Assembly: GCA_902388495.1 (NCBI GenBank)
Contig: CABMPP010000019.1
Coordinates: 1-64,000 of the forward strand
Direction: 5' to 3'
Length of the DNA: 64,000 nt
From: an uncultured Bacteroides sp.
GTDB lineage: Bacteria > Bacteroidota > Bacteroidia > Bacteroidales > Bacteroidaceae
Made by a program: the position numbers and the translations under genes
Shown here: in pieces, positions 1 to 44,590 of the stretch
Numbering within the stretch: the first letter of the stretch is position 1
Layout: every line of letters starts with the position of its first letter
Notes under the pieces: model-generated
Told to the model about the DNA's origin: nothing
Database searches by the model: none
Seen by the model: the letters and a program-made list of their open reading frames with translations, nothing else

Positions 1-1718
1 GTGTCCTGACTTGGGAAGAAGGAGACAAACTGACCGTAGTAGGCTTCGATGAAAGTGGCTCCTATCAAGGAAAAGCGGAGTACACTTTGTCTTCCGAAGC
101 AGGCGATACGAAAGGCTCTTTTACCGGAAGCGAGATTGCCAGTGCCACCAAGTACAATGTTTATTATCCCTCTACTGTGACCGTGGACGAGACTACAGGC
201 GCCGCCACTTTCGCCCTCTCCACCCAAAATCAAGACGGTAGCAACAATACCGCCCATCTTCGCAACAATATCTTCCTGCAAGCAACCGGTGTAACCGATT
301 TAGGCAATATCAAGCTTGACATGAAAAGCAGCATCATGAAGTTCGAATTAAGCAATGTACCCCAAGAAGTGGGCACACTGAAAACCTTGATATGGACAGT
401 GGAAACTGCAGATGGCCTTAAAAGTTTGGAGTTAGTATTCCCTACAGCAGGAAATATCGTAACCTTCAGTGACGGCAATCAAGGGCTTACCGCCTATCTT
501 GCTTTTATGCCCGATGATATGTCGGTGAAAGCGAACGGCAAGTTCAGCGTAACATTAAAAGGGGATAAGGCTTATTATGCCGAAACTACCATCATCGATG
601 GAAAGACTTATGCCGAAAACTTACGCTATACTGCCAAGATAGATGGCAACAGCAGTACGATGGAATGGAAGGCGAAGCCCCTCACTGTACAGACTACGGT
701 TGCATCTGGCTCCAATTACTACAATGGCTTTACTATGGAGATTGGCTCCTGGAAAGCCGATGCTCCTGCCGAACAGATAACTTTGGGCAGTGCTATTATT
801 GCTGATGGGGCAGCCGCCATTTCCGTTGATTTAAGTGCATATATCGGTAAGGATATTTGGATCTGCATCCCCAAGGTTGTGAAGTTCTTCCATACGCTGA
901 CCGCGGACGAAGCAAGCAGCATGGAAATTGTGCTTCCCGACAAGGACGGCGGCAGTACGCTGAAAGCCTCTCCTACGGCAAGCGACAAGAAATATGAGAA
1001 CGATTGGATTGTTGCTCTCTACATGGGCGTGAACAAGGATGGCGGCACAGCAGCTGATGCCGTTCCCCTCTATTGGGCTACGGGTAATCTCATTGCCACG
1101 AAGACAGGCAGCGGAGATAGCGATGTCGCTTTCCATATCGCCACAGCTGATGAGACCAAGAGCGAAGTTACTACATATGACAACTATACGAAATATAGAA
1201 ACCGTTCCCTCGGTAGCCAATGGAACTTGTTCGGCTACGGTGATGCCAGTGGCTTGAAGACGAGCGAGAATGACGGCGATTATCCTGACGAAGATATCAG
1301 CGGCAGCAGTACTTATGACATCGCTCGTGTGCAGCTGGGTGGCAGTTGGCGTCTTCCTACTTGCGGTAAAGGTGCCGACAATGAGTTTGCCGCTTTTGCT
1401 GATGGTGCTATTTCGGGTATTCTACCCGATGGTGCAAACTGGAAGGATAACAATACTTTTCTTGGACGTGAGTACACCCACACCATTTCCGATGACGATG
1501 CCTCCCGGAGTACCATCACCAACACCCTTCGGTTTCCCGCGACGGGCCATCGCGAAGGGTTGAATGCAGTTTTCATTCAGAGTTTCGGCTACTATTGGAG
1601 TGGCTCGGTCTACGGTTCGGGTCTCGTGTACAGCTTGAGCATCAGCGACTACTCCGCCTACCCAGACAACAGCGGCCTCCGCCACTACGGCCAGTCTGTG
1701 TGCCCTGTTTCAGAATAA
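1..1718 (+). CDS. Fimbrillin-family surface adhesin with DGR-like variable C-terminus (5' truncated)
   Basis: The reading frame is open from base 3, with no start in the window, so the N-terminus lies upstream. The first residues visible (WEEGDKLTVVG and following) and the long beta-rich body resemble Bacteroidales fimbrillin (Mfa-like/FimA-clan) repeats, which build or cap type V pili at the cell surface. The last ~110 residues look like the FISUMP/DUF1566-type C-type-lectin-like fold (LRFPATGHR, YYWSGS, GQSVCPV). From about 1608 to 1691 almost every codon ends in C (tac, agc, atc, gac, ctc, cac), with a few fixed codons between (ttg, cca, cag), the pattern expected of a DGR variable region. 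Family placement is inferred from sequence character only; the variable C-terminus suggests a ligand-binding tip subunit. It ends before a strong terminator. Confidence 0.8.
   Translation, partial: VLTWEEGDKLTVVGFDESGSYQGKAEYTLSSEAGDTKGSFTGSEIASATKYNVYYPSTVTVDETTGAATFALSTQNQDGSNNTAHLRNNIFLQATGVTDLGNIKLDMKSSIMKFELSNVPQEVGTLKTLIWTVETADGLKSLELVFPTAGNIVTFSDGNQGLTAYLAFMPDDMSVKANGKFSVTLKGDKAYYAETTIIDGKTYAENLRYTAKIDGNSSTMEWKAKPLTVQTTVASGSNYYNGFTMEIGSWKADAPAEQITLGSAIIADGAAAISVDLSAYIGKDIWICIPKVVKFFHTLTADEASSMEIVLPDKDGGSTLKASPTASDKKYENDWIVALYMGVNKDGGTAADAVPLYWATGNLIATKTGSGDSDVAFHIATADETKSEVTTYDNYTKYRNRSLGSQWNLFGYGDASGLKTSENDGDYPDEDISGSSTYDIARVQLGGSWRLPTCGKGADNEFAAFADGAISGILPDGANWKDNNTFLGREYTHTISDDDASRSTITNTLRFPATGHREGLNAVFIQSFGYYWSGSVYGSGLVYSLSISDYSAYPDNSGLRHYGQSVCPVSE
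1584..1718 (+). repeat. Candidate DGR variable region (VR)
   Basis: Codons 1629-1691 read tac agc ttg agc atc agc and so on, and 19 of 21 end in C. Adenine mutagenesis of AAC codons in a template repeat yields NNC codons, so this bias, confined to the lectin-fold end of the gene, is the classical VR signature. Invariant-looking codons (tgg at 1596, ttg at 1635, cca at 1662, cag-tct-gtg at 1692) interrupt the run as expected. No template repeat or reverse transcriptase is visible in this window, so an active DGR is inferred only. Confidence 0.55.
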
Positions 1719-18591: not shown

Positions 18592-20052
18592 ATGGCATTT
18601 ACGAACAACATTATGATTGTCCGCCACCGCTTGCTGAAAGAGCTGGTGAAACTGTGGCATGACAACGAACTTGTGGAGAAAATAGACCGGTTGCCCATCG
18701 AACTGAGTCCGAGGCGGTCCAAACATGCGGGACGTTGCTGCGTACACAAAGAACGTGCCGTGTGGAAATACAAATCGCTGCCGTTGCTGGGCTTGGACAT
18801 GGAGGATGAGAGCGATGAGCTGACCCCGTTGTCGGAGTATGCAGCCCGTGCACTGGACAGGGCGGAGAGTGGCAAGCCGAAGGATAACATCATGTGCGTG
18901 ATTGACGAGGCATGTTCGGCATGTGTACAGATCAACTATGAAATAACGAATCTTTGCCGCGGATGTACTGCACGCAGTTGCCAGGTGAACTGTCCGAAGA
19001 AAGCAGTACACGTAAAGGAAAGCGGACAGGCGTGGATAGACCATGATGAGTGCATCAGTTGCGGCATTTGCCATAAGAATTGTCCTTATCATGCCATCGT
19101 TTACATACCTGTGCCGTGCGAGGAAGCTTGCCCGGTGAAGGCCATCAGCAAGGATGAGAAAGGAATAGAGCATATCAACGAAGATAAATGTATTTATTGC
19201 GGTAAGTGCCTCAATGCTTGTCCGTTCGGAGCTATCTTCGAGCTTTCGCAGGTGTTCGATGTGTTGCATCAGATACGTAAGGGAGAACAGGTGGTAGCTG
19301 TGGTGGCTCCGTCCATTCTGGGACAATTCAAAGCGACCATCGAGCAGGTGTATGGTGCGCTGAAAGCAATCGGCTTTACGGATGTGATTGAAGTGGCGCA
19401 GGGAGCGATGGAGACTGTTCGCAATGAGGCGCACGAGTTGGTGGAGAAGCTCGGAGAAGGGCAGAAGTTTATGACGACTTCTTGTTGCCCGTCTTATATA
19501 GAATTGGTGAATAAGCATATTCCGGGAATGAAGCCTTATGTCTCGGGCACTGGTTCGCCTATGTACTATGCCGCCCGCATTGCAAAAGAGAAATATCCGG
19601 ATGCCAAAGTGGTCTTTATCGGCCCGTGTGTAGCCAAGCGTAAAGAGGCGCAACGCGATGAAGCGGTGGATTACGTCATGACGTTCGAGGAGGTGGCTTC
19701 TGTGCTGGACGGACTGAATATTGAGTTGGAACGGGTGCAACCGTATGCCATGAAGTTTACCTCTGTGCGCGAAGCGCATGGTTTTGCGCAAGCAGGTGGC
19801 GTGATGGGAGCAGTGAAGGCTTATCTGAAGGAAGAAGCGGATCAGATGAATGCTGTCCAGGTGTCCAATCTGGATAAGAAGACAATAGGCGCGTTGCGTG
19901 CTTATGCCAAATCGGGGAAGGCGCCGGGACAATTCGTTGAAGTGATGGCTTGCGAGGGAGGCTGTATCACTGGGCCGTGTGCACATAATGAGATTGCGGC
20001 GGGAAAGCGGCAGTTGGTGCAGGAATTGGCGAAACGGGAGGAGACATATTAA
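18592..20052 (+). CDS. Monomeric [FeFe] hydrogenase (group B-like)
   Basis: This 486-residue soluble protein catalyses 2H+ + 2e- to H2, probably with ferredoxin as the only partner. Residues ~100-225 hold many cysteines: LCRGCTARSCQVNCPKKA, CISCGICHKNCPYHA and CIYCGKCLNACPFGA, ligands for several [4Fe-4S] clusters. The H-cluster motifs are TSCCPSY (~297), GPCVAKRKE (~344) and MACEGGCITGPC (~451). The second reads GPC instead of the MPC of group A, and the third ends GPC rather than GGG, features I associate with group B. There is no PAS or phosphatase domain, so the sensory group C is unlikely. The N-terminal ~90 residues are unassigned. Maturase genes follow downstream. Confidence 0.88.
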   Translation: MAFTNNIMIVRHRLLKELVKLWHDNELVEKIDRLPIELSPRRSKHAGRCCVHKERAVWKYKSLPLLGLDMEDESDELTPLSEYAARALDRAESGKPKDNIMCVIDEACSACVQINYEITNLCRGCTARSCQVNCPKKAVHVKESGQAWIDHDECISCGICHKNCPYHAIVYIPVPCEEACPVKAISKDEKGIEHINEDKCIYCGKCLNACPFGAIFELSQVFDVLHQIRKGEQVVAVVAPSILGQFKATIEQVYGALKAIGFTDVIEVAQGAMETVRNEAHELVEKLGEGQKFMTTSCCPSYIELVNKHIPGMKPYVSGTGSPMYYAARIAKEKYPDAKVVFIGPCVAKRKEAQRDEAVDYVMTFEEVASVLDGLNIELERVQPYAMKFTSVREAHGFAQAGGVMGAVKAYLKEEADQMNAVQVSNLDKKTIGALRAYAKSGKAPGQFVEVMACEGGCITGPCAHNEIAAGKRQLVQELAKREETY

Positions 20053-20063
20053 GGAGTTTTAGG

Positions 20064-20121
20064 ACATAAGAACAAAAGAACATATTTAAGATGATTATTT
20101 CTTTTGTTCTTATGTTCTTTT
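20064..20121 (+). terminator. Long hairpin between hydrogenase and hydE
   Basis: A perfect 17-bp stem ACATAAGAACAAAAGAA (20064-20080) with its complement (20099-20115) is A/T-rich and followed by CTTTTG. It would attenuate rather than fully stop transcription into hydE, since no other promoter was recognised in the 125-bp gap. Confidence 0.65.
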
Positions 20122-20177
20122 GTCTAAAGTAAATCTTCTGTCAACCGATAAAATTTCCATTTCTCAAATAACGTGAT

Positions 20178-21278
20178 ATGATGAAAAACTTGATTGACAA
20201 ATTATGTCGGGAGCGAGCGCTGAGTGCCGAAGAGTACAAAGCACTGCTGCTCTGCCGCGATGCAGAAGTCTTGGAGCATCTGCAACGACGGGCGCAGGAG
20301 GAGACGCTTGCACGGTTTGGCAATCGGGTTTTCATCCGCGGACTGATTGAGATAACAAACCGCTGCCGTAATAATTGTTACTATTGCGGAATACGGAAAG
20401 AAAACCGGAACGTAGTCCGCTATGAGTTGACGCAGGAAGAAATTCTGGAATGTTGCCGCGAAGGATATCCGCTCGGTTTCCGTACTTTTGTATTGCAGGG
20501 TGGAGAGGCGCCGGAACTGAAGGACGACCGGATCACAGAAACTGTTGCCGCCATCCGCCGTGAGTTTCCCGACTGCGCCATCACCTTGTCACTGGGCGAG
20601 AAGACGCACGAAGCCTACGAACGCTTCTTTCATGCAGGTGCCAACCGCTACCTGCTACGGCACGAGACGCATAACGAAGCGCACTATCGCCAACTCCATC
20701 CCGGAAGCAAAAGGGGAAACGATAGAAGCGGAATGTCCCTGCAACATCGCCTGCAGTGCCTGGACTGGCTGAAAGAAATCGGCTATCAGACAGGGACAGG
20801 CATCATGGTGGGGAGTCCTCACCAAACCATCGACCATCTGGTAGAAGATATCCTTTTTATCGGGCAGTTCCGTCCGGAGATGATTGGCATAGGGCCTTTC
20901 ATCCCGCATCACGACACTCCCTTTGCATCCGCTCCGCCAGGCAGCATGCAGCTGACCCTGAAACTGCTTTCCATCTTCCGCCTGATGCACCCTGCCGCCC
21001 TGATACCTTCTACCACCGCCTTGGCAACGCTTGCACCGGACGGACGGGAACGCGGAATTTTGGCAGGAGCCAACGTCGTAATGCCTAACCTTTCACCACC
21101 CGCCCAACGGGAAAAATATTCTCTCTACGACCATAAAGCCTCTATGGGCGCCGAAGCTGCGGAAGGATTGCAACTGCTGGAAGAAAAACTGAGAAGCATA
21201 GGATATGAAATATCGAAAGAAAGAGGAGACTATAGAATTTTAGACGAAACCATAAATCATAAATCTTATAATGTATAA
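20178..21278 (+). CDS. hydE: [FeFe] hydrogenase H-cluster radical SAM maturase HydE
   Basis: This 366-residue radical SAM enzyme takes part in making the dithiomethylamine ligand of the H-cluster. The cluster motif CRNNCYYCG (CX3CX2C) is at residues ~63-71, preceded by RGLIEITNR. GEKTHEAYERFFHAGANRYLLRHETHNEAHY (from ~136) and GTGIMVGSPHQT (~209) are conserved in HydE, and MPNLSPPAQREKYSLYDHKA (~304) lies in the C-terminal barrel. The last 8 bp overlap hydG, which favours coupled translation. It is the first of the hydE-hydG-hydF set that matures both hydrogenases here. Confidence 0.95.
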   Translation: MMKNLIDKLCRERALSAEEYKALLLCRDAEVLEHLQRRAQEETLARFGNRVFIRGLIEITNRCRNNCYYCGIRKENRNVVRYELTQEEILECCREGYPLGFRTFVLQGGEAPELKDDRITETVAAIRREFPDCAITLSLGEKTHEAYERFFHAGANRYLLRHETHNEAHYRQLHPGSKRGNDRSGMSLQHRLQCLDWLKEIGYQTGTGIMVGSPHQTIDHLVEDILFIGQFRPEMIGIGPFIPHHDTPFASAPPGSMQLTLKLLSIFRLMHPAALIPSTTALATLAPDGRERGILAGANVVMPNLSPPAQREKYSLYDHKASMGAEAAEGLQLLEEKLRSIGYEISKERGDYRILDETINHKSYNV

Positions 21279-22689
21279 TGTAAAATCAAAACGAGCGGAA
21301 GAATTCATTCATCATCAGGAGATACTGGATACACTGGAGTATGCGCATGCCAATCGCAATAACCGTCCGCTCATTGAAGCCCTGATTGAAAAAGCTGCTT
21401 TATGCCGGGGACTTTCCCATCGGGAAGCCGCCTTATTGTTGGAGTGCGACCAACCCGACCTGGTGGAACGCATCTTCCACCTGGCGCGGGAAATTAAACA
21501 GAAGTTCTACGGCAACCGCATCGTCATGTTTGCCCCGCTATACCTTTCCAATTATTGCGTGAACGGTTGTGTCTATTGTCCCTACCATGCCAAGAACCGG
21601 ACCATCGCCCGCAAGAAATTATCGCAGGAAGAGATTCGGCAGGAAGTCATTGCCTTGCAGGATATGGGGCATAAACGTCTGGCATTGGAAGCGGGGGAAG
21701 ATCCGCGTCGCAATCCCCTTGATTATATCCTGGAGTCTATCCGGACCATTTATAGCATTCACCATAAGAATGGTGCCATCCGCCGTGTCAATGTGAACAT
21801 TGCCGCCACGACCGTGGAAAACTACCAGCGCCTGCGGGATGCAGGTATCGGTACTTATATCCTCTTTCAGGAAACTTACCACAAAGAGAATTACGAAGCG
21901 CTGCATCCCACCGGACCCAAAAGCAACTACGCTTATCATACCGAAGCTATGGACCGCGCCATGGAAGGAGGCATCGACGACGTGGGTATAGGCGTATTGT
22001 TCGGACTGAACACATACCGCTACGATTTCGTCGGACTGATGATGCATGCCGAGCATCTGGAAGCAGCTTTCGGGGTAGGTCCGCACACTATCAGCGTTCC
22101 CCGTATCTGTCCGGCGGATGATATTTCGACTGACGATTTTCCGAATGCCATTTCGGATGAGATGTTCTGTCGTATTGTGGCCGTTACGCGGATTGCTGTG
22201 CCGTATACGGGAATGATAATTTCTACACGTGAGACGGAAGCGGTGCGCCGGCAGGTGCTGGAATTGGGAATTTCGCAGATCAGTGGCGGTTCGCGTACCA
22301 GTGTGGGCGGTTATGCTGTGCCGGAGACGGAAGAGGATAACTCTGCCCAGTTTGATGTGAGCGACAGGCGTACGTTGGACGAAGTTGTCAACTGGCTGCT
22401 CGACCTCGGACATATCCCCAGCTTCTGTACGGCTTGTTATCGCGAAGGACGTACGGGAGACCGTTTCATGTCTCTTGTCAAGCGGGGGCAGATAGCCAAT
22501 TGTTGCCAGCCCAATGCGTTGATGACGCTGAAGGAGTATCTGGAAGATTATGCTTCGCCTGGGACGCGGGAGAAGGGAATACGCTTGATTCATGAAGAAC
22601 TGGCGCACATCCCTAATCCGAAGATACGGGAGATAGCGCAGCGAAATCTGCAAGAGATAGAGAATGGTAAAAGAGATTTTAGATTTTGA
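21271..22689 (+). CDS. hydG: [FeFe] hydrogenase H-cluster radical SAM maturase HydG
   Basis: This 472-residue tyrosine lyase of the ThiH-like radical SAM family cleaves tyrosine to supply CO and CN- to the H-cluster as Fe-cysteine synthons. The SAM-cluster motif CVNGCVYC (CX3CX2C) is at residues ~96-103 after NRIVMFAPLYLSNY. The second, auxiliary cluster is ligated by the C-terminal cysteines in CTACYREGRTGDRFMSL (~388) and NCCQPNALMTLKEYL (~411). Length and both motifs are complete. ATG 21271 overlaps hydE by 8 bp. Confidence 0.95.
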   Translation: MYNVKSKRAEEFIHHQEILDTLEYAHANRNNRPLIEALIEKAALCRGLSHREAALLLECDQPDLVERIFHLAREIKQKFYGNRIVMFAPLYLSNYCVNGCVYCPYHAKNRTIARKKLSQEEIRQEVIALQDMGHKRLALEAGEDPRRNPLDYILESIRTIYSIHHKNGAIRRVNVNIAATTVENYQRLRDAGIGTYILFQETYHKENYEALHPTGPKSNYAYHTEAMDRAMEGGIDDVGIGVLFGLNTYRYDFVGLMMHAEHLEAAFGVGPHTISVPRICPADDISTDDFPNAISDEMFCRIVAVTRIAVPYTGMIISTRETEAVRRQVLELGISQISGGSRTSVGGYAVPETEEDNSAQFDVSDRRTLDEVVNWLLDLGHIPSFCTACYREGRTGDRFMSLVKRGQIANCCQPNALMTLKEYLEDYASPGTREKGIRLIHEELAHIPNPKIREIAQRNLQEIENGKRDFRF

Positions 22690-22705
22690 AAGAATTGATA
22701 TAAAT

Positions 22706-23896
22706 ATGACCAATACTCCCAACTCCAACCGTCTGCACATTGCCCTTCTGGGTCGGCGGAACAGTGGCAAATCCAGCCTTATCAATGCTTTGACAGGTCA
22801 AGATACCGCCCTTGTCTCACCGACTCCCGGCACCACCACCGACCCCGTGGCAAAAGCTATGGAAGTGCACCCGCTTGGTGCCTGTCTCTTCATAGATACT
22901 CCCGGCTTCGACGACAACGAAGGAGAACTGGGCAGTCTGCGCGTGGAGCGTACCTTGAAGACGATAGAGCGTACCGATATCGCCCTGCTGCTTTGTGAAG
23001 ATGGTGGAGAGATGGAAAAGCAATGGCTGGAGCTGCTTGCCGGGCATGAAATTCCGGTCGTCCTGATTCTGAATAAATCCGACCTTCGCACGGATGCCGA
23101 AGAACTGGCATCCCGTATTGCTGCGAACTGCGGTGAGCATCCCGTCATTGTCAGCGCCAAAGAAAACTTCGGTATCCCGAATATCTTCCAAGCCATACTT
23201 GAAAAACTACCGGAAGATTTTGGCGAACAAAGCATCACCGGCGAACTGGTAGGAGAGGGGGATGTCGTCCTTCTTGTAATGCCACAAGACATACAAGCCC
23301 CCAAAGGCCGCCTTATTCTGCCTCAGGTACAGACCATCCGAGAACTCTTGGACAAGAAATGCCTGGTAACGAGCTGCACTACGGACAAACTGAAAGACAC
23401 TCTGCAATCTCTTGTCCGTCCTCCCAAACTGATTATCACCGACTCACAAGTATTCCCCCTTGTCTATCAGCAGAAACCTGCCGAAAGTCAGCTCACCTCC
23501 TTCTCCGTACTCTTTGCCGGATACAAAGGAGACATCGACACCTTTGTAAAAGGAGCTTCCGCCATCAGCAGCCTGACTGAGCAGTCGCATGTACTGATAG
23601 CGGAAGCCTGCACGCATGCTCCTCTTGCAGAAGACATCGGCAGAGTAAAACTTCCCCGCTTGCTGCGGAAACGCATTGGCGGGAATCTGCAGATAACCAT
23701 CGTTTCGGGCAATGATTTCCCAAAAGACTTATCCGGTTATGACCTCATCATCCACTGTGGCGCTTGCATGTTCAACCGGAAGTATGTACTCAGCCGTATT
23801 GCAAAAGCACGCTCACAAAACATTCCGATGACGAATTACGGAGTGGCGATTGCATATCTGAGCGGGATATTGGATAAAATAGTGATAAAGTGGTAG
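22706..23896 (+). CDS. hydF: [FeFe] hydrogenase H-cluster maturation GTPase HydF
   Basis: This 396-residue scaffold GTPase carries the 2Fe precursor and delivers it to the hydrogenase. The start is ATG 22706 (MTNTPNSNRLHIALLGRR), 17 bp after hydG; an in-frame ATG at 22664 would overlap hydG and add non-conserved residues. The G1 motif GRRNSGKSS is at ~15-23, PGTTTDP (G2) at ~42, DTPGFDD (G3) at ~66 and NKSD (G4) at ~122. The C-terminal cluster ligands are EACTHAP (~302) and HCGACMF (~351-357), the HX2CX and CXH pattern of HydF. The stop codon lies inside a 23-bp inverted repeat. Confidence 0.95.
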   Translation: MTNTPNSNRLHIALLGRRNSGKSSLINALTGQDTALVSPTPGTTTDPVAKAMEVHPLGACLFIDTPGFDDNEGELGSLRVERTLKTIERTDIALLLCEDGGEMEKQWLELLAGHEIPVVLILNKSDLRTDAEELASRIAANCGEHPVIVSAKENFGIPNIFQAILEKLPEDFGEQSITGELVGEGDVVLLVMPQDIQAPKGRLILPQVQTIRELLDKKCLVTSCTTDKLKDTLQSLVRPPKLIITDSQVFPLVYQQKPAESQLTSFSVLFAGYKGDIDTFVKGASAISSLTEQSHVLIAEACTHAPLAEDIGRVKLPRLLRKRIGGNLQITIVSGNDFPKDLSGYDLIIHCGACMFNRKYVLSRIAKARSQNIPMTNYGVAIAYLSGILDKIVIKW

Positions 23897-31585: not shown

Positions 31586-33031
31586 GTGACAGATTCGTTG
31601 AAACATAAAACAATCCAAGGTGTCGGATGGAGTTTCATTGACAATATCGCAAGTTCAGGTATTACCTTTTTGGTAGGACTTGTGCTTGCTCGTCTCTTAA
31701 CTCCTGAAGAGTATGGAGTAATGGCCATGATAGCTATATTTATTGCAATATCTAATTCCATTATAGACAGTGGCTTTTCCAATGCATTGATACGAAAGAT
31801 ACATGTAGAGCGAATTGATTATAATACAGTCTTTTGTTTTAATTTGATAGTCAGTATTCTTATTTATGTACTTCTCTATATATCTTCTCCTGCTATTAGT
31901 CTATTTTTTAATGAGCCTATTTTGAAAGGAGTAACAAGAGTAATCGGATGGGTACTGATAATTAATGCACTTGCTATTATTCCTCGTACTCAATTTGTGA
32001 AGAATATAGATTTTAAAACACAGACCAAAGCGTCTTTTATATCTTCTATTAGTAGTGGAGTTATTGGAATAGGGATGGCGTTAGGAGGTATGGGAGTATG
32101 GAGTTTAGTTGGGCAACAACTGTCTCGTCAGTTTTTGAATACTTTATTACTTTGGTTTTATAGCAAATGGTATCCGGTATGGGAATTCTCTGCAAAAAGT
32201 TTTAAAGAATTGTTTGGCTTTGGTTCTAAATTGTTACTTTCGGGATTATTGGATACTATTTATAAGAATATTTATTATATTGTAATAGGACGTTTTTATA
32301 CTTCTATACAGTTAGGACAATACACTCGTGCTGAACAGTTCAATACAATATTTTCTAGTAATTTGAGTCGGATTGTGCAGCGCGTTAGTTATCCTATGCT
32401 CAGTTCCATACAGGAAGAACAAAAACGTTTGCGTGAGGCTTATCGGCGTGTAATAAAGACTACCATGCTTGTAACCTTTGCTTGTATGCTTGGACTTGCT
32501 GCTATAGCTAAGCCTTTAATCATAATTCTAATAGGGGAGAAATGGTTACCGGCTGTTGCTTTTTTGCAAATTATCTGTTTTGCGGGTATGCTTTATCCGC
32601 TCCATGCTATCAATTTGAATATTTTGCAGGTAAAGGGGCGTTCGGATTTATTTCTTAAATTGGAAATTGTCAAGAAAATCATAGCGATAGGTCCTGTCGT
32701 TATGGGAATCTACTATGGAATCGAGTATATGTTGTGGGGCAGTGTTCTAACTTCTGTCATAGCTTATTTTTTTAATAGCTATTATTCAGCAGAATTAATA
32801 CATTATCCTACAACTGACCAAATAAAAGATATATTACCTATTTTTATTGTTTCTTTGACTGTTGCTATCGTTATGTGGAGTCTATCTATGCTAAACATTT
32901 CCGTTTACATACAACTTCCTATTCAATTAGTTGTAGGCATGGTATTGGCTATTACCGCCTATGAACAGTTACAACTCCCCGAATATTTTGAGTTAAAGCA
33001 ACTTGTACTTTCTGCTATTCGTAAGAAATAA
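31586..33031 (+). CDS. wzx: Polysaccharide repeat-unit flippase (Wzx, MOP superfamily)
   Basis: This 481-residue membrane protein has ~14 hydrophobic segments. It begins LKHKTIQGVGWSFIDNIASSGITFLVGLVLARLL, the usual start of the oligosaccharide flippase/MviN-like family (WzxC subgroup). The conserved LTPEEYGVMAMIAIF segment follows at ~38. It flips the lipid-linked repeat unit across the inner membrane. The start is GTG 31586, 123 bp after upxY. AT-content rises sharply from here on compared with the flanks, consistent with horizontally acquired capsule genes. Confidence 0.9.
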   Translation: MTDSLKHKTIQGVGWSFIDNIASSGITFLVGLVLARLLTPEEYGVMAMIAIFIAISNSIIDSGFSNALIRKIHVERIDYNTVFCFNLIVSILIYVLLYISSPAISLFFNEPILKGVTRVIGWVLIINALAIIPRTQFVKNIDFKTQTKASFISSISSGVIGIGMALGGMGVWSLVGQQLSRQFLNTLLLWFYSKWYPVWEFSAKSFKELFGFGSKLLLSGLLDTIYKNIYYIVIGRFYTSIQLGQYTRAEQFNTIFSSNLSRIVQRVSYPMLSSIQEEQKRLREAYRRVIKTTMLVTFACMLGLAAIAKPLIIILIGEKWLPAVAFLQIICFAGMLYPLHAINLNILQVKGRSDLFLKLEIVKKIIAIGPVVMGIYYGIEYMLWGSVLTSVIAYFFNSYYSAELIHYPTTDQIKDILPIFIVSLTVAIVMWSLSMLNISVYIQLPIQLVVGMVLAITAYEQLQLPEYFELKQLVLSAIRKK

Positions 33032-33058
33032 AAATCAGAAATATTATTATTAAATGAG

Positions 33059-34168
33059 ATGGGAAACAAAGTAATTACGGTTACTTCTCCGTTACTTCCT
33101 TCACTAGACGATTTTATACCCTATCTGCAAGATATTTGGGATCGTAAGTGGTTGACTAATAATGGTCATTATCATAAGGAGTTGGAGAGAGCCTTGTGCG
33201 AGTATTTGGAAGTGCCTTATATCAGTTTGTTTACCAACGGTACTTTGCCGTTGATGTGTGCATTGCAAGCGTTGCGTATTACGGGTGAAGTGATAACCAC
33301 TCCTTATAGTTTTGTTGCTACTACTCACGCTTTGTGGTGGAATGGCATCAAACCTATATTCGTGGATATTAATCCTGAGACTTGCAATATCGATCCTGAT
33401 AAGATTGAAGCTGCAATAACTCCTAAAACAACAGCTATCATGCCTGTTCATGTGTATGGTAAACCTTGTGATGTGGAACGCATCCAAGAGATAGCCGATA
33501 AGTATGGCTTGAAAGTCATTTATGATGCTGCACATGCTTTTGGCGTGAAAGTAAATGGAAAATCAATACTGGAAGCTGGTGATATTTCGACGCTGAGTTT
33601 TCATGCTACGAAAGTATATAATACGATTGAGGGGGGAGCCTTAATATGTCACGATGAAAAAACGAAAAATCGTATTGATTATTTGAAAAATTTTGGTTTT
33701 GCAGGAGAAACAACGATTGTGGCTCCTGGTATCAATGGCAAAATGGATGAAGTGCGTGCAGTTTATGGTCTGCTAAATTTGAAGCAAGTGGATGCGGCAA
33801 TAAACTCTCGTCAACAAGTAGCCATCAAGTATCGTGAAGTTTTACGAAATGTAGAAGGTATTAGCTTTATGGAAGACATGCCGGGAGTTCATCACAATTA
33901 TGCTTATTTTCCCATTTTCGTGGATGCTCCAAAATATGGCATGACTCGTGATGAACTTTATTTCAAAATGAAAGAGCAGAACATATTGAGCAGACGTTAT
34001 TTTTATCCACTTATAAGTGAGTTTTCTACTTACAGAGGATTGGAGTCTGCAAAACCTGAAAATTTGTCAGTGTCGCATAAGATTGCCAATAGTGTGATTT
34101 GTTTACCGATGTACCATAATCTTGATAATAGTGCTATAGAGTATATCCTAAATTTGATAGTTAAATAA
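33059..34168 (+). CDS. DegT/DnrJ/EryC1/StrS-family sugar aminotransferase
   Basis: This 369-residue PLP enzyme makes an amino sugar from a nucleotide keto-sugar. Visible are the substrate loop FTNGTLPLMCALQAL (~58), VFxDINPETCNIDP (~99), VYDAAHAFGVK (PLP-ring Asp, ~153) and the Schiff-base lysine in STLSFHATKVYNTIEGGA (~177-194). The C-terminal part RRYFYPLISEFSTYRG is typical of VioA/FdtB-like members. Its last base is shared with the ATP-grasp gene (TAATG), implying coupled expression. The exact sugar is unknown. Confidence 0.9.
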   Translation: MGNKVITVTSPLLPSLDDFIPYLQDIWDRKWLTNNGHYHKELERALCEYLEVPYISLFTNGTLPLMCALQALRITGEVITTPYSFVATTHALWWNGIKPIFVDINPETCNIDPDKIEAAITPKTTAIMPVHVYGKPCDVERIQEIADKYGLKVIYDAAHAFGVKVNGKSILEAGDISTLSFHATKVYNTIEGGALICHDEKTKNRIDYLKNFGFAGETTIVAPGINGKMDEVRAVYGLLNLKQVDAAINSRQQVAIKYREVLRNVEGISFMEDMPGVHHNYAYFPIFVDAPKYGMTRDELYFKMKEQNILSRRYFYPLISEFSTYRGLESAKPENLSVSHKIANSVICLPMYHNLDNSAIEYILNLIVK

Positions 34169-35376
34169 TGAAACAAAAAAGACTTCTTCTTCTTGGTGGC
34201 CTGCGTTATTTGCTTCCAGTAATAGAGGCGGCTCATAAACAAGGTTACTATGTAATAACTTGTGATTATATTCCGAATAATATAGCTCATAAATATTCTG
34301 ACGAATACCATAATGTAAGTATTATAGATAAAGAGACGGTACTAGCTTTGGCACATGAACTTCAGATAGATGGTATTATGTCCTTTGCTGTTGATCCTGG
34401 AGTTGTAACTGCTGCTTATGTGCAGGAACAGATGGGGCTACCAGCATTTGGACCTTATGAATCAGTCTGTATTTTGCAGAATAAGGATAAATTTCGTAAC
34501 TTTTTGACACAACATGGCTTTAATGTTCCGAGAGCCAAAGGCTTTTCTTCTATAGAAGAGGCTTTGGATGAAACTTACTGGTATTCTTGGCCTGTGATAG
34601 TAAAGCCTACAGATGCAGCAGGTAGTAAAGGGGTAACGAGGGTTAATAGCTTGGAAGATTTGGAACCAGCACTTAAGCATGCATTTGAGCATTCCATATC
34701 CAAGCGGGTAATCGTAGAAGAGTTTATCGAAAAACAAGGATATTCTTCTGATACGGATAGTTTTTCCGTGAATGGAGAGTTAAAGTTTGTGTCATATTCT
34801 GCGCAACGGTTTGATGATGATGCAGCTAATCCATATACGCCATCTGCTTACAGTTGGCCTTCAACTTTTACAATAGAGCAAAAGACCGAGCTAACTTCTG
34901 AATTACAGCGATTGTTAAAGCTTTTGAGGATGCATACTTCTATCTATAATATTGAAACCCGTATAGGATCGAATGGGAAGCCTTATATAATGGAGGTTTC
35001 TCCAAGAGGCGGTGGCAATCGTCTAGCTGAAATGCTTCATTTTGCGACAGGAGTTGATCTGATAACTAATGCTGTGCGTGCAGCAGTAGGCGATGAAATT
35101 GAGAAAATAGAACAAAGAGCTTATTGCGGGCATTGGGCAGAGGTGATATTGCATGCAGACAGAGATGGACGTTTTAAATCATTAGCTATTGACGAAAAAA
35201 TTTATCAGGCTCATGTAGTTCAAACAGATTTGTGGGTTAAGGAAAATAATAAAGTTTCTGCATTCAAGGGTGCTAATGATGCAATAGGTACATTAGTCTT
35301 GAAATTTGATTCAGAATCAGAATTAGAACAGACTTTAGCTCATCAAAAGGATTGGCTGACTGTTGAATTAAAATGA
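34168..35376 (+). CDS. ATP-grasp ligase, capsule-associated
   Basis: This 402-residue protein starts with a pre-ATP-grasp Rossmann segment (KRLLLLGGLRYLLPVIEAA, ~3-21). The ATP-grasp core follows: VIVKPTDAAGSKGVTRV (~146-162), VIVEEFIEKQGYSSDTDSF and EVSPRGGGNRLAEML (Mg/ATP ligands, ~277). Such enzymes join a carboxylate to an amine. Next to an aminotransferase it may attach an amino acid or similar acid to the new amino sugar; this is inference. It overlaps the aminotransferase by one base and is followed after 38 bp by the GT56-like gene. Confidence 0.88.
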   Translation: MKQKRLLLLGGLRYLLPVIEAAHKQGYYVITCDYIPNNIAHKYSDEYHNVSIIDKETVLALAHELQIDGIMSFAVDPGVVTAAYVQEQMGLPAFGPYESVCILQNKDKFRNFLTQHGFNVPRAKGFSSIEEALDETYWYSWPVIVKPTDAAGSKGVTRVNSLEDLEPALKHAFEHSISKRVIVEEFIEKQGYSSDTDSFSVNGELKFVSYSAQRFDDDAANPYTPSAYSWPSTFTIEQKTELTSELQRLLKLLRMHTSIYNIETRIGSNGKPYIMEVSPRGGGNRLAEMLHFATGVDLITNAVRAAVGDEIEKIEQRAYCGHWAEVILHADRDGRFKSLAIDEKIYQAHVVQTDLWVKENNKVSAFKGANDAIGTLVLKFDSESELEQTLAHQKDWLTVELK

Positions 35377-35414
35377 TGGTAACTATATGTAAGTAATATT
35401 TTGGTACTTTTACA

Positions 35415-36548
35415 ATGATGGATAAATTGATTTTTATACATATAGGTGCGGATGAAAAATTTTATAGATTGGCACGGGAACAATTTAGCAATATAGAATA
35501 TCTTCATAATATATATTATTTAAAGTCCAATATAAATAAAAGACTTGATAACCTGATAGTTATTGATAGCTTTAAGGCTTTATTCAATGAAATATCAAAA
35601 ATACCATATTTTGCATTAATTCTTCATTCCAGATGCGGTATTCCTGAATTTTATTTCAAAAAAATACCTCGTGAAAAAATAATAGTTTGGATTTCATTTG
35701 GTTTTGATTTATACAGTGATACTTCTTTTTTACACTTGGATAGAACCCCTTTGAAATATCCATTGTTCAAATCTAAGACTATACATTATCTTTGTAAGCA
35801 TCCAATTTCTTATATATTAAGAAGAATCTTTGTAATTTGGAAGCATAAATTAGGATATTCTTTTTTTATGAAAAGAATTGATTACGTTTCAACAAGATTG
35901 CATATAGAGTTTGAACTTTTATCTGTTGAATATCCACATGCCAAAAATTTTTCTTTTTCATATATTGGTAAAGAGGATGTATTAACTACTAAGATACATG
36001 ATTTAAATGATAGTAATCGTATATTGGTAGGAAATTCGGCTTCAATAGAGAATAATCATTTTGACCTTTTTGAGAGAATAAGATGTTCTAATTTAACGAA
36101 GAAATATAACCTTATTGTTCCTATAAATTATGGAAATGAATTATATAAAAAAGAAGTTGAAAAGAAGGGTGTTAAATATTTTGGAAAGAATATAGAACTG
36201 TTGAAGAATTTTATTCCTTATAAAGAGTATGTGCAGCTTCTTTCTTCATGTAAAGTTGGTATTATGGGACATTTGAGGCAACAGGCTTTAGGAAATATAG
36301 AATTATTAATATTAAATGGCGCAAAAATATTTGTCTATAAGGATAGTGTAATATATAAGTGTTATAAACAAATAGGAATAAAATTATTTACTATAGAAGA
36401 TGATTTGAATATAAATAATATTGATACGCCTTTATCAGTAGATATAGCAAATAATAATCGTAATATTCTTATTGAATATTTTTCCTATACTCGTAGCTTA
36501 CAGGATTTGAAATTATCTATACAGAATATTGTTGAAAATCATAGATGA
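35415..36548 (+). CDS. GT56-like glycosyltransferase (WecF/Fuc4NAc transferase family)
   Basis: This 377-residue protein has no membrane segment. RILVGNSASIENNHFDLFERI (from ~210) followed by the NLIVPINYGN and VQLLSSCKVGIMGHLRQQALGN segments matches the Glyco_transf_56 family, whose E. coli member WecF adds TDP-Fuc4NAc to lipid II of enterobacterial common antigen. Sequence is strongly AT-rich. The donor in this locus could be the sugar made by the upstream aminotransferase/ATP-grasp pair. It overlaps the polymerase gene by 4 nt (ATGA). Confidence 0.75.
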   Translation: MMDKLIFIHIGADEKFYRLAREQFSNIEYLHNIYYLKSNINKRLDNLIVIDSFKALFNEISKIPYFALILHSRCGIPEFYFKKIPREKIIVWISFGFDLYSDTSFLHLDRTPLKYPLFKSKTIHYLCKHPISYILRRIFVIWKHKLGYSFFMKRIDYVSTRLHIEFELLSVEYPHAKNFSFSYIGKEDVLTTKIHDLNDSNRILVGNSASIENNHFDLFERIRCSNLTKKYNLIVPINYGNELYKKEVEKKGVKYFGKNIELLKNFIPYKEYVQLLSSCKVGIMGHLRQQALGNIELLILNGAKIFVYKDSVIYKCYKQIGIKLFTIEDDLNINNIDTPLSVDIANNNRNILIEYFSYTRSLQDLKLSIQNIVENHR

Positions 36549-37726
36549 TCTATTTCTTTATTTTATCTTTTATATTAATAGGTATTTTTTTGTATGATAT
36601 ACGAAATTGTCGTACGAAAAGAGTGGAATATTATTATTTCATTTTTATGTTATTGTCTCTGTTATCAGGTTTTAGTTATAGATTGGGGGCTGATACAATT
36701 TCGTATATGAATGAATATAAATCTTATAGTGATAATGTATTAATACTTTCATTTAATTATATTTTTTCATTTGCGGAGACAGATAGGATGCCCTTGTGGA
36801 TCTTGCTGAATACAATTTTCCGAATGTTTCATGCTGACTTTTGGGTTTTTCATTTGTTTCAGTCTATTGTCATTAACTATGCTGTATGTTTTATTTTTCA
36901 TAAATATAGTAATTGTTCTTTTGTTGCCCTTTTATTGTATTATATTGTAATATTCCCTTATTTTAATTTTGAGATTTTGCGTGAAAGTTTTTCTGTAGCT
37001 ATTTTTTTGTTCTTGGTTCCAAGCCTTTTAGCTAAATCTTATTTTAAATATTATATAGGTATATTATTTGCATTGGGATTTCATATTTCTGCTTCTGTCT
37101 TGTTTTTTGTGCCTTTTATGGAGATAATATCTCGACAAAAATTCGGATTTGTTATTTTTGTAATTATTATAGTTGTGATTCTATTTTGTTCTCAATATTT
37201 TACAGAATCCCTGTTGTTACTGTTGAATATTGATTTGTATGCAGATAAGGCATTAGGATATTTTACAAATACAAAATATTCTTTATCTAAATTGAACGTT
37301 TCATTTGTTGTCAATATTTTATTTTTTATAGTTTTGCCATATGTATTATATGCTTTTTCATATAAAAAAAGGGAATATAAAAATCTTTCTTTATTTCCAT
37401 TAGTAGGAATGTATACATTAATATATGCTGCAACATTAATAGTCCCGATCTTTTATCGTTTAAACAATTATTTTATAATATTTTTTATTATATGTATATC
37501 TGGCATGTGGAAAGGCTGGCATTTTGAAAGAATCTCCATTAGCGTAGTTAAATTTATTGGGCGTTTCCTTTTGTTATGTTTTTTGCTTTTTAAGTTGAGC
37601 TTATATTGGCTTCCTTTGTATCCAACTATATATCCTTCGTATTCAAGATATTATCCTTATGAATCTGTTATATATAAACACACTGATCCTATTCGTGAAC
37701 GTATATTTTTTAATTTAGACAAATAG
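36545..37726 (+). CDS. wzy: EpsG/Wzy-type polysaccharide polymerase
   Basis: This 393-residue protein has ~10-11 hydrophobic segments and few conserved residues, as usual for polymerases. SGFSYRLGADTISYMNEYKS (~38-57) is characteristic of the EpsG family (polysaccharide polymerisation in the periplasm), and FEILRESFSVAIFLFLVPSL (~138) is the conserved R-E segment. It starts in the last codon of the GT56-like gene. A 252-bp AT-rich gap without a gene follows before the MurB-like gene. Confidence 0.8.
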   Translation: MIYFFILSFILIGIFLYDIRNCRTKRVEYYYFIFMLLSLLSGFSYRLGADTISYMNEYKSYSDNVLILSFNYIFSFAETDRMPLWILLNTIFRMFHADFWVFHLFQSIVINYAVCFIFHKYSNCSFVALLLYYIVIFPYFNFEILRESFSVAIFLFLVPSLLAKSYFKYYIGILFALGFHISASVLFFVPFMEIISRQKFGFVIFVIIIVVILFCSQYFTESLLLLLNIDLYADKALGYFTNTKYSLSKLNVSFVVNILFFIVLPYVLYAFSYKKREYKNLSLFPLVGMYTLIYAATLIVPIFYRLNNYFIIFFIICISGMWKGWHFERISISVVKFIGRFLLLCFLLFKLSLYWLPLYPTIYPSYSRYYPYESVIYKHTDPIRERIFFNLDK

Positions 37727-37978
37727 TAAGCTATTACTTGTAGTGTGTTAATTGATTTCTTTATTATTATCATGAGAATCTATATTTCTGCTAGCATTGT
37801 AAAATTATTTTAGAGGAATGGAAATTATACTTGTTTTTATTTGCTGTACTTTTTCGTGATAATTCTTAGTGTATAACTATTACGATATTGTTTATTCATA
37901 CTATCTTTTGTATTGCCTGTCGGCAATGAGAAATTATTGAAATATTCATGAAATGAACCATAAAATGGAGTTTATAAA
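37727..37978. other. AT-rich gap within the capsule operon
   Basis: The 252 bp hold no ORF longer than ~15 codons starting at ATG, no convincing terminator and no consensus promoter. CCTGTCGGCAAT-type hairpins are weak. It is the longest break in the otherwise tight operon and may mark an insertion or deletion junction ahead of the MurB-like gene. Confidence 0.5.
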
Positions 37979-38827
37979 ATGAAAATACTTAAATCAGTAG
38001 ATTTGTATAAGTACAATACGATGAAATTACATTGTTTTGCAGAAATTATGTACATACCGGAGTCTGTTAATGAATTAGTTGAACTTATCACTATGCTGAA
38101 GGAGCAGCATCTTAATTTCTATTGTTTAGGAGCAGGTAGTAATATCATTTTTGCGGAGAGAGTAGAAAGACCTATTATTAATTTGATGTTTTTTGACAAT
38201 AGCTTATGCTATTGTGAGAATGGCATTGTGCAATGTGGTGCCTCTGTAAGAATCCAGAAACTTATTTCATGGCTTAAAAACTATTCTTTAGGAGGTATTG
38301 AATATTTATTTTCTGTTCCTTCCAGTGTAGGGGGGGCTGTATATATGAATGCAGGCCGTGGTCGTAAGTTTAATATGTCAATATCAGATTATATTCAAAT
38401 GGTAAAATACTTGGATCTATCTGATATGAAAATCAAAACTCTTTGTGGAAATGAATACTTCTCATATAGAACATCTCCTTTTCAAAAAATAAATGTTGTA
38501 ATACTGAACGTGTTTTTTAAATTCAAAAAACAAGAATTAGCAGTAACTGAAAGATTAATAAAAGAGAGGTTGGAGTACTCAAAGAAGACTTTATCTGCAG
38601 ATAAACCAAGTTGTGGCTCTGTGTTTAATAAGGTAAATCCATTTATTATTAGATTGTTTATGGGCAAAGTGAGTGGTGGAGCCATGTTTTCTCAAAAGAC
38701 TCCTAATTGGATTTGTAATATGGGTAATGCTACTGCTAAAGATATTGAAAATTTAGTAGGGAGGGTTATTAGAATTCATAGATTGTTTTTGTTAAAATAT
38801 AATTTAGAGATTCGTTTTTTTAAATAA
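37979..38827 (+). CDS. MurB-like FAD oxidoreductase inside the capsule operon
   Basis: This 282-residue protein resembles UDP-N-acetylenolpyruvylglucosamine reductase. It shows the FAD-binding GAGSNIIF (~50), GGIEYLFSVPSSVGGAVYMNAG (~106-127), YRTSPFQ (~165), SADKPSCGSVFNK (catalytic Ser region, ~202-214) and NWICNMGNATAKDIENLV (~243). It lacks the obvious LEPEVR end with the catalytic Glu, ending LEIRFFK instead, and is a bit shorter than housekeeping MurB. MurB makes UDP-MurNAc for peptidoglycan. In a capsule locus it may make a lactyl-type sugar, or be a recruited homologue. The housekeeping copy would be elsewhere. Confidence 0.8.
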   Translation: MKILKSVDLYKYNTMKLHCFAEIMYIPESVNELVELITMLKEQHLNFYCLGAGSNIIFAERVERPIINLMFFDNSLCYCENGIVQCGASVRIQKLISWLKNYSLGGIEYLFSVPSSVGGAVYMNAGRGRKFNMSISDYIQMVKYLDLSDMKIKTLCGNEYFSYRTSPFQKINVVILNVFFKFKKQELAVTERLIKERLEYSKKTLSADKPSCGSVFNKVNPFIIRLFMGKVSGGAMFSQKTPNWICNMGNATAKDIENLVGRVIRIHRLFLLKYNLEIRFFK

Positions 38828-38830
38828 ATC

Positions 38831-39997
38831 ATGATGCATATATTACATATTTCAGGATCGTATGGAGGTACAGAGGTTTATAAGAATCTGTATTCTTCTT
38901 TGGACAATTTAGGAATACGGCAAACTATATTTGTGCCTTTGAATGCTGCTAATCATGATAGGATAGGTAGTCACTATATTGATTTTAAGGTCTCAGGATC
39001 TCGTATTATTTATTCGGTAGCTTTAAAACCTTGGCATCGCTTCTTTTATAAAAATAAAATAAATGTTATAACAAGGGAAATAGAGAGAGAGGTTGATCTA
39101 CGGTGTGTAGATATTATCCATGCTTCTACATTATGTATGGATGGAGCAGTTGCTTATGAGTTAAAAAAAAAGTTTGATATACCTTATTTATCTGCAGTAC
39201 GAAATACAGATATATCAGTTTATTACAAATATTTTAAATGGCAGATTCCTTACTTTTCTAAGGTTTTTTCCGAAGCTGCTAACATTGCTTTTATTTCTCC
39301 TCAATATAAAAATTTTTATTTGAAGAATTTTGTAGCAGAGAGTAAACAGAAAAATGTCATAAATAAAATTGTAATAATTCCTAATGGTATAGATGCACTT
39401 TTTCTCAAGAAAAGATTCATGGCATTCAAGGAGCTGTCGCGTCCTATAAAAGTTGTTTTTGCTTCTGCGTTTGTGAGAAATAAGGGGTTGATGGAAATAA
39501 TCAATGCTATTGCTTTATTGAGAAATGAAGGGTATGATATAACTCTGAATGCTATTGGAAAAGGTTTGCCTTTTAGAAGAGAAAATACTAATTATATAGA
39601 TAAAGTGGAAAAATTGGCAGAGAAATACGATTGGATCGAATTGCAGAATTTTTTACCAAAAGATTTATTACGTGAAGCTTTTTCACAAAGTGATATTTAT
39701 GTGATGCCATCTCAACCGGAAACTTTTGGTTTAGTTTATGTAGAGGCACTTTCGCAAAAACTTCCTATCGTTTATGGTAAAGGAGAGGGATTTGATGGCT
39801 ATTTTGAAGAATCTTTTGTTGGTTATGCAGCAATTCCTTTTGATGTAAATGATATAGCCGAGAAGATAAGACTTGTGGTAGATAATTATGATAAAATAAT
39901 TGCTAATATTAGTAGTCTTGATTTGAATAATTTATTTAGTTGGGAAAGTATTTCTGAAAAATATGCGGAATTATATATGAAAATAACTGTACAATGA
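38831..39997 (+). CDS. GT4-family glycosyltransferase
   Basis: This 388-residue GT-B enzyme has its N-terminal acceptor domain opening MHILHISGSYGGTEVYKNLY. The C-terminal donor domain begins near PIKVVFASAFVRNKGLMEII (~208) and has the DIYVMPSQPETFGLVYVEAL motif (E-x7-E nucleotide-sugar ligand, ~297-316). It is a retaining glycosyltransferase adding one sugar to the growing repeat unit. It starts 3 bp after the MurB-like gene and overlaps the pyruvyl transferase by 4 nt. Confidence 0.9.
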   Translation: MMHILHISGSYGGTEVYKNLYSSLDNLGIRQTIFVPLNAANHDRIGSHYIDFKVSGSRIIYSVALKPWHRFFYKNKINVITREIEREVDLRCVDIIHASTLCMDGAVAYELKKKFDIPYLSAVRNTDISVYYKYFKWQIPYFSKVFSEAANIAFISPQYKNFYLKNFVAESKQKNVINKIVIIPNGIDALFLKKRFMAFKELSRPIKVVFASAFVRNKGLMEIINAIALLRNEGYDITLNAIGKGLPFRRENTNYIDKVEKLAEKYDWIELQNFLPKDLLREAFSQSDIYVMPSQPETFGLVYVEALSQKLPIVYGKGEGFDGYFEESFVGYAAIPFDVNDIAEKIRLVVDNYDKIIANISSLDLNNLFSWESISEKYAELYMKITVQ

Positions 39998-41109
39998 AAA
40001 AACTAGCACTTCTGTCTTTTCATAATGCGGCCAATTACGGTGCTGCTTTACAAGCATATGCCTTGCAACATGTTTTGTCTCAGAAAGGATATAATTGTGA
40101 ATATATTAATTATCAGAATAAACAGCGGCGAAATGAATACAATATGGCATATCATGTTGTAGAATGTTTGAAGCAAAAGAAACTTAAATCAGCGTTAGTT
40201 TATTTCTTAGGTAGTCCGTTTATGTTTATTAGGAAGAGGAGATTCAGGAAGTTCTATGACCATTATCTTAAATGTACTGACACAATCTATTCAACACGAC
40301 AGTCGGTTGCTATATTAAATAGTCAATATGATAAATTTATAGTGGGAAGTGATCAGGTGTGGAACTATGAAAACAATGGAGGTGATTTCGTGTATATGCT
40401 TGATTTTGTAGAAAAAAGAGAAAAAAAAGTCTCTTATTCTTCGAGCTTTGGTCTATGTTCAATACCTGATGAATTATTGGAAAAATACAGAAAGTATTTA
40501 AATGATATCAAGTATTTGTCAGTACGTGAAAGCTATGGTGTAGAAATAATTAGAAAACTTACTGGGCGGACAGCTAAATTAGTTTTGGATCCAGTCTTTT
40601 TAGTAAAGAAAGAAGATTGGCAATCTTTGTGCCATATTATAAATGAAAAATATATTTTTTCTTATACCAATCAACCTCACCAATTTAATATATTTCTAAG
40701 CCAAACGACATTTAATATTAGAAAATATAAACATTACAAATTAGCACGTGCTACTACAGTTTTAGATTTTTTATCTAATTCTACAAGAGTTAAATATACA
40801 ATGTCCCCAACAGAATTTGTTAGTGTCATTAATTGTGCTGACTTGGTAGTGTCTGCATCATTTCATTGTATCTCGTTAGCTATTATTCTAAATAGACCTT
40901 TTGTTGCTATTTTAGCTGGGGATATGGGAAAGGATGAAAGAATATTAAGCCTATTGAACTTATTGGGTTTGCAAGATAGAATATTATCTTCTTTCATGAC
41001 ACTAAATAAGGTTATGGAAAAAATAGATTACGATAGGGTAAACCAAAAGATTACTTCATTAAGAAATGATTCACTTTCATTTTTGAAAGAGAGTATAGAA
41101 GATAATTAA
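39994..41109 (+). CDS. Polysaccharide pyruvyl transferase (CsaB/WcaK-like)
   Basis: This 371-residue enzyme belongs to the PS_pyruv_trans family, transferring pyruvate from PEP to form a ketal on a capsule sugar. It begins KKLALLSFHNAANYGAALQAYALQHVL, diagnostic for the family. IVGSDQVWNYENNGGDFVYML is at ~118, and DLVVSASFHCISLAIILNRP (~284-303) contains the active-site His. Pyruvylation would give the capsule negative charge. It overlaps the GT4 gene by 4 nt. Confidence 0.9.
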   Translation: MKKLALLSFHNAANYGAALQAYALQHVLSQKGYNCEYINYQNKQRRNEYNMAYHVVECLKQKKLKSALVYFLGSPFMFIRKRRFRKFYDHYLKCTDTIYSTRQSVAILNSQYDKFIVGSDQVWNYENNGGDFVYMLDFVEKREKKVSYSSSFGLCSIPDELLEKYRKYLNDIKYLSVRESYGVEIIRKLTGRTAKLVLDPVFLVKKEDWQSLCHIINEKYIFSYTNQPHQFNIFLSQTTFNIRKYKHYKLARATTVLDFLSNSTRVKYTMSPTEFVSVINCADLVVSASFHCISLAIILNRPFVAILAGDMGKDERILSLLNLLGLQDRILSSFMTLNKVMEKIDYDRVNQKITSLRNDSLSFLKESIEDN

Positions 41110-41123
41110 TATAATATATTGGT

Positions 41124-42404: not shown

Positions 42405-42407
42405 GCT

Positions 42408-43400: not shown

Positions 43401-43911
43401 TTGTCGGAGTCAAAAAGGAACTCTCTTTTCTTGGATGTGGAAAAAGTTGTATAAAGAAAAAGTGCCGGTTCCCTATTATTGTTATTATTCCTTGTTTACT
43501 ATTATATTAAAGCCTATAAGAAAGTGGTTTTCTGCCGTATTTATTCCTACTATTCCTTTCTCTAACTTAAGGGTGCAGTGCTATAGATGGTGTGGCTACA
43601 AAATAGGTAAGAATACTTTTATAGGGATGCGCTGTTATTTGGATGATATGTGTTATGATTTGATTGAAATAGGTGATAATGTGACAATATCTTATGGCGT
43701 TTTTTTGGCATGTCATGGTCGGAAACAAGGACATAATAGGCTGGTCATAAAAGAGGGGGCTTATATTGGAATGAATAGTTCTATAATTGCCCGTAATAAT
43801 GATGGAATAGTAATCGGAAAGAATGCAGTAGTAGGAGCTTGTAGCTTAGTGAATAAATCAGTTATGGATAATTCGGTAGTGGTTGGTGTTCCTGCTAGAA
43901 AAATTAAGTAA
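43387..43911 (+). CDS. Left-handed beta-helix (hexapeptide) acyltransferase
   Basis: This 174-residue protein has hexapeptide repeats of the [LIV]-G-x4 type through ~85-165 (IGKNTFIGMRCYLDDM, IGDNVTISYGVFLACHG, IKEGAYIGMNSSIIARN, IGKNAVVGACSLVNKSV). It ends VVGVPARKIK, the common end of maltose-O-acetyltransferase-like enzymes. A catalytic His is probably in LACHGRKQGH. It would O- or N-acetylate a capsule sugar using acetyl-CoA. The 60-residue N-terminus is less conserved. It sits between GT2 and the initiating transferase. Confidence 0.88.
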   Translation: MENADCRSQKGTLFSWMWKKLYKEKVPVPYYCYYSLFTIILKPIRKWFSAVFIPTIPFSNLRVQCYRWCGYKIGKNTFIGMRCYLDDMCYDLIEIGDNVTISYGVFLACHGRKQGHNRLVIKEGAYIGMNSSIIARNNDGIVIGKNAVVGACSLVNKSVMDNSVVVGVPARKIK

Positions 43912-43934
43912 AGTCTAATAGACGTTTTAGATAT

Positions 43935-44525: not shown

Positions 44526-44590
44526 AGTACTTTCCTTTCTTTTTATTCCACTCTATATACGAAAATCGGATCATCATAAATAATTTTCTT

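Follow-up and report, generated by a model that had tools for sequence, protein, structure and literature searches.

Is the 3′ end of the adhesin gene at the start of this stretch of gut Bacteroides DNA the variable repeat of a diversity-generating retroelement (DGR), and if so, where are the reverse transcriptase (RT) and the template that rewrite it? In a DGR, an adenine-erring RT copies the transcript of a template rich in AAC and AAT codons into cDNA, which then takes the place of the target's matching 3′ end. The window, which is the whole stretch of 64,000 nucleotides (64 kb) that was analysed, contains the candidate target listed with its parts in Table 1. We put at about 0.85 the probability that this tail is the variable repeat of a DGR, with its RT and template either located at some other place in the genome or no longer present. 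Sequence comparison shows the tail to be a homologue of RT-linked templates with the codon pattern predicted for a DGR target, and the variation among its relatives follows the prediction as well. The preliminary description, in which the gene is a DGR target or the descendant of one, with an RT upstream, in trans or lost, is in this respect borne out, the tail being the module that RT-linked templates encode.

Table 1 Coordinates in the window of the adhesin gene, its predicted domains and its 3′ features
Feature	Position	Strand	Remarks
Adhesin gene	3..1718	+	Open frame; first 67 codons precede the window
Fimbrillin-fold N-terminal region (predicted), in-window part	3..680	+	Protein residues 68-293
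C-type-lectin-like C-terminal domain (predicted)	969..1718	+	Stretch folded alone
DGR variable-repeat-like tail module, FPATG...PVSE	1533..1715	+	61 codons; aligned to 164 template peptides
Densest NNC block	1608..1691	+	22/28 codons NNC
Flank right after the stop codon	1719..1740	+	20/22 bases common to B. timonensis relative L001

The gene product is predicted to be a lipoprotein-like adhesin with a fimbrillin-fold N-terminus and a C-type-lectin-like C-terminus; the fimbrillin type and the C-type-lectin-like end were first suggested from the sequence. The full-length protein (P0001) has 638 aa and, spotted by eye, a lipobox-like ASGC close to its N-terminus. Two features of type V pilus tip pilins are present, the fimbrillin fold and an extra C-terminal domain with a putative binding role. 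The C-type-lectin-like assignment is backed by a predicted structure with middling structural matches, and 4eps is the first Foldseek match of the protein. No Pfam model reaches its cut-off on the protein, Lcl_C (PF07603) and FISUMP (TIGR02145) are absent from the P0001 matches in Pfam (E ≤ 1) and NCBIfam (E ≤ 0.1), and the FimD tip-adhesin model NF052322 gives it 15.5 bits against a curated cut-off of 170. Two homologues in the relative G028 have no adjoining fimbrillin in the ORF list, as judged by eye.

The putative variable repeat occupies the gene's 3′ end, inside the C-type-lectin-like domain, as in DGR targets. The codons between 1608 and 1691, described at the outset as nearly all NNC, are so in 22 of 28 cases compared with 0.357 gene-wide (binomial P 4.5e-6, uncorrected for picking the best stretch). 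The variable stretch had been placed at 1584-1718, which covers the 3′ two thirds of the repeat; the repeat itself starts earlier, at about 1533 with FPATG, and ends at 1715. These bounds follow from the homologous template/variable-repeat pairs of other loci (L109).

Templates linked to RTs encode an Asn-rich version of the same module. It is carried in their own reading frame by 164 of 190 listed RT-family proteins, at whose start the Asn-rich peptide sits; the 190 are those among the best 120 of 5421 matches to the L109 template-RT frame and the best 120 of 135 matches, were found with fused queries, and give a fraction that is no census. In an alignment with the 164 template peptides, the window tail matches 19 of 28 conserved non-Asn columns and retains Asn at 1 of the 20 Asn columns. 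Of the 20 window codons at those Asn columns, 19 have C or T in third position (P 0.0028; gene body 0.66) and 16 have C (P 3e-5; gene body 0.34), the lone exception to C or T being GAA, which A changes alone cannot derive from AAC or AAT. Where three template DNAs have AAC or AAT, the window has C- or T-ending codons at 17/18, 16/18 and 17/18 places. Mismatches with these three foreign templates fall at 35/56, 34/51 and 34/54 of the template A sites as against 49/127, 51/126 and 45/123 of the other bases, an excess at A with P 0.004, 0.003 and 0.002, respectively. Because the non-A background is high, these templates are homologues of the window's own template and not that template itself. Applied to the tails of L001, L193 and L194, the same test gives P 1e-5 to 0.03, save for L193 with one template (P 0.4).

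The module profile has matches in 67 of 158 Bacteroides genomes (E ≤ 0.001) and in 110 of 399 family genomes (E ≤ 1e-12); the 399 are a subset of a larger group, scoring covered up to 15 candidates in each genome, and few matches were inspected. Five genomes (G102, G094, G095, G429 and G368) have 11 to 20 tail-module matches apiece, which suggests large networks of variable proteins. In L109, L143, L145 and P0121-P0310 the template is in the RT frame, and the RT N-terminus would bear an Asn-rich copy of the target tail; in L149 the template is in a different frame from the RT. This arrangement was considered as a novelty and set aside because template and RT frame have already been reported to overlap (PMC3521204).

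An intact DGR bearing the tail module exists in the relative G135. At its locus L109, comparison of template and target reveals changes at 25 of 59 A sites and at 1 of 130 other bases. The RT reading frame there opens with the template, read in frame, and the RT has the SQ dipeptide (GNLTSQ) that marks DGR RTs (PMC3521204). L109-like RTs are found in 22 of 158 Bacteroides genomes (E ≤ 1e-25). Template/variable-repeat pairs are present in 14 of a first set of 20 stretches (13/16 of those chosen by RT match, 1/4 of those chosen by tail match) and in 13 of a second set of 20 (19 chosen by RT match), 11 of them clear and two, L156 and L161, doubtful. In three relatives (G135, G323 and G440), templates rewrite targets that lie away from them, although the contigs come from draft genomes and may be nearer than they appear. 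In six of ten such tails the adenine bias has P no higher than 3e-6; P is 0.004 in one and 0.4 in another, and two further tails, from G135 (L195), have little bias (34/59 at A vs 57/124 elsewhere; 30/59 vs 53/124). Eleven of 19 fetched stretches, from G429 and G290, have no template in their pieces and were left out of this bias test.

Variation among relatives of the adhesin, drawn from the best 120 of 213 protein matches, is concentrated in the tail. The close relatives P0002-P0005 and P0016 are alike in their bodies and unlike in their tails; between P0002 and P0003, 528 of 560 body positions are identical as opposed to 35 of 61 in the tail. This pair also differs in a short patch right after GGSW, LFGRIEMESMYRLLAS vs LSVRIELESMSNLLLN (about 1350-1395 in the window, P0001 residues 517-531), possibly a second variable patch in the same domain. 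G028 encodes two paralogues of the window adhesin (L193 and L194), whose close relatives P0006 and P0007 have 54% identity to the window protein. The last 60 codons of L193 and L194 differ at 27 bases, distributed 13/13/1 over codon positions 1/2/3, whereas their 605 body codons differ at 199, distributed 69/49/81 (Fisher P 6e-5 for the third-position share); at the body rate about eight third-position differences would be expected in the tail. The presence of A in one copy, at 19/27 tail and 120/199 body differences, does not discriminate. Diversification confined to the tail and to codon positions 1 and 2 is thus seen in the nearest relatives with DNA or a strain variant. As proteins, P0006 and L194 are identical at 591/601 body and 40/62 tail positions, and P0007 and L193 at 600/603 and 62/62. 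These comparisons indicate that tails evolve faster than bodies and that some of the change looks like tail copying: P0006 and P0007 share an identical tail (62/62) on bodies that match at 518/601 positions, which looks like a finished tail copied between paralogues rather than fresh mutation.

The window itself contains neither a template nor a convincing RT, in agreement with the preliminary description. Adenine-tolerant scans of both strands with 1584-1718 and then 1527-1718 as queries give no template, the best non-self place having 13 non-A mismatches in 75 nt. A tblastn search of the 64 kb with three DGR RTs has its best E at 0.045 over 20 residues, and nothing convincing is found for RT or Avd. 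With both components absent from the window, the tail looks like a distant or an abandoned DGR target. No cognate template is found in 158 Bacteroides genomes with the window tail DNA as query; the three matches at E ≤ 0.01 are one long match, which is the G001 tail, and two of 33-40 bases. The L109 template was tried as the window's own and rejected, with at least 25 non-A mismatches per 100 nt at the best alignment, and PF00078 alone was discarded as a marker of DGR RTs for being too general (95/158 genomes match). The nearest uvrB to that of the window, at 86%, is in B. rodentium (G002) and in G158, and synteny with G158 starts only at 4110.

Mobile elements were searched as well. Among viral contigs, the adhesin pattern search returns 39 stretches and no relatives, and of the tail patterns a 17-base one returns seven stretches, none of which encodes the module, and the other returns none. 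A 3.3-kb DNA query has two matches in phage records, which cover 2% of it downstream of the adhesin gene, and no match in plasmid records. At the protein level there is one phage match at 30% and no plasmid match; plasmid RTs have 29-35% identity.

The 3′ flank provides a further comparison. In L001 it forms a perfect 6-bp GC stem, which the two differences in the window weaken to an imperfect one; stems of 5 bp occur near the stop codon in L109, L193 and L194, and a perfect stem is absent at that place from L108 and L110, two away-lying targets. In phage BPP-1, efficient homing requires such a hairpin (PMC3240598).

How the window tail came to be as it is can be read in several ways. Under a DGR reading, a template transcript would be copied by an adenine-erring RT and the cDNA would replace the adhesin 3′ end, the cDNA step being supplied by established knowledge of DGRs. 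The AAC and AAT codons for Asn would become NNC and NNT in the tail, placing about 20 changeable residues on the C-type-lectin-like domain with which this fimbrillin-fold surface protein ends, where they may alter what the adhesin binds. Ordinary bias towards C-ending codons together with positive selection, with no special mechanism, could be entertained given that C endings occur at 14 of 41 other tail columns too and that one other 28-codon stretch in the window's stop-to-stop frames of at least 200 codons reaches 20/28 NNC (minus strand, about 5594, in a 690-codon frame at the uvrB place). It is nonetheless very improbable, as the C/T endings cluster at the template-Asn columns, homologous tails have proven template pairs, and third positions account for 1/27 differences in the G028 tails against 81/199 in the bodies. 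Slightly more improbable still is diversification of the tails solely by recombination among paralogues and strains, with no RT ever involved. The single tail on the two unlike bodies of P0006 and P0007 is what such exchange would leave, but recombination alone leaves unexplained both the position 1-2 changes with frozen third positions and the homology to RT-linked Asn-rich templates.

Within the DGR reading, the tail may be an active remote target, to which we give overall odds a little short of even, or an orphan, which we rate slightly lower. In the latter case the DGR is gone from the lineage, the tail is a leftover, and ordinary recombination now copies finished tails among paralogous adhesins. 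The empty 64 kb, the weaker flank stem in the window and the shared tail of P0006 and P0007 all speak for an orphan, as does G028, which keeps two such adhesins. That genome has no PF00078 match and one truncated DGR-type RT, with no template pair within the 19 kb around it, and a search of it with tail DNA matches only the two adhesin tails and finds no template; it was treated as one contig (C1, 3,998,906 bases, for a genome given as 4.0 Mb). Against an orphan, the window genome is seen only over 64 kb, DGRs of relatives act on away-lying targets, and G158, one of the two holders of the nearest uvrB, has an intact DGR about 58 kb from uvrB whose lipoprotein-like adhesin target has a different tail. 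The truncated RT frame of G028 (161 aa) lies in the region 7341-11904 of L146, next to an accessory-protein-like frame and another variable-tailed protein, a lipoprotein-like frame of 888 aa, and the group is read as a decayed DGR.

A broader and more speculative proposal, which we think unlikely as matters stand, is that some Bacteroides keep hypervariable tails without a working diversifier. DGRs in other strains or in passing elements would make the tails, which would then pass ready-made, as cassettes, from one paralogous adhesin gene to another, with the window gene as another case. G028, with two variable adhesins, a truncated RT and no template found, and the tail shared by P0006 and P0007 are traces expected under this proposal. 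If it is true, surveys confined to RT neighbourhoods miss some of the diversity; in any event, G028 is a relative in which to examine whether diverse adhesins persist after the element behind them is gone.

Diversification of Bacteroides surface adhesins by DGRs is already known, and the window gene adds a remote or orphaned case to it. Macadangdang et al. 2024 is cited by the review PMC12632263 for DGRs acting on type V pilus tip pilins in Bacteroides, a subject to which the preliminary description also alluded. As in the systems outlined there, a C-terminal binding domain (predicted here) of a surface adhesin would be rewritten by a DGR; the window gene, whose product is a candidate pilin, differs in that neither RT nor cognate template is found for it. 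DGR targets of the DUF1566 and Fib_succ_major types are described from human gut metagenomes in PMC4159848, which reports one with an Mfa2 domain and likens the variable-target fold to 4eps. The window protein resembles the targets in that account as a fimbrillin-type lipoprotein with a C-terminal variable domain and a 4eps-like fold, but falls below every Pfam cut-off. Remote and RT-less targets are described in Treponema denticola (PMC4891356) and remote ones in cyanobacteria (PMC7517822). Like these, the window repeat is far from or without a core RT and template, yet the type of template is identified in those accounts and none is found for the window gene. Compared with the G135 DGR (L109), the tail module is the same, ending in SVRPVS, whereas the target body there is kinase-like instead of fimbrillin and the template is not the window's. 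PMC8144416 states a C-type-lectin rule for DGR targets and notes that surveys are blind to remote ones; the window case demonstrates a way to recognise a target with no RT nearby.

The remainder of the window holds other loci. Just 3′ of the adhesin gene, 1911-2729 encodes a protein with HU-type DNA-binding and DUF4469 regions, relatives of which are at other places in G001, G105 and G156. Further along are an iron-only hydrogenase with two radical-SAM proteins and HydF (18592-23896) and a polysaccharide biosynthesis locus (31721-45721).
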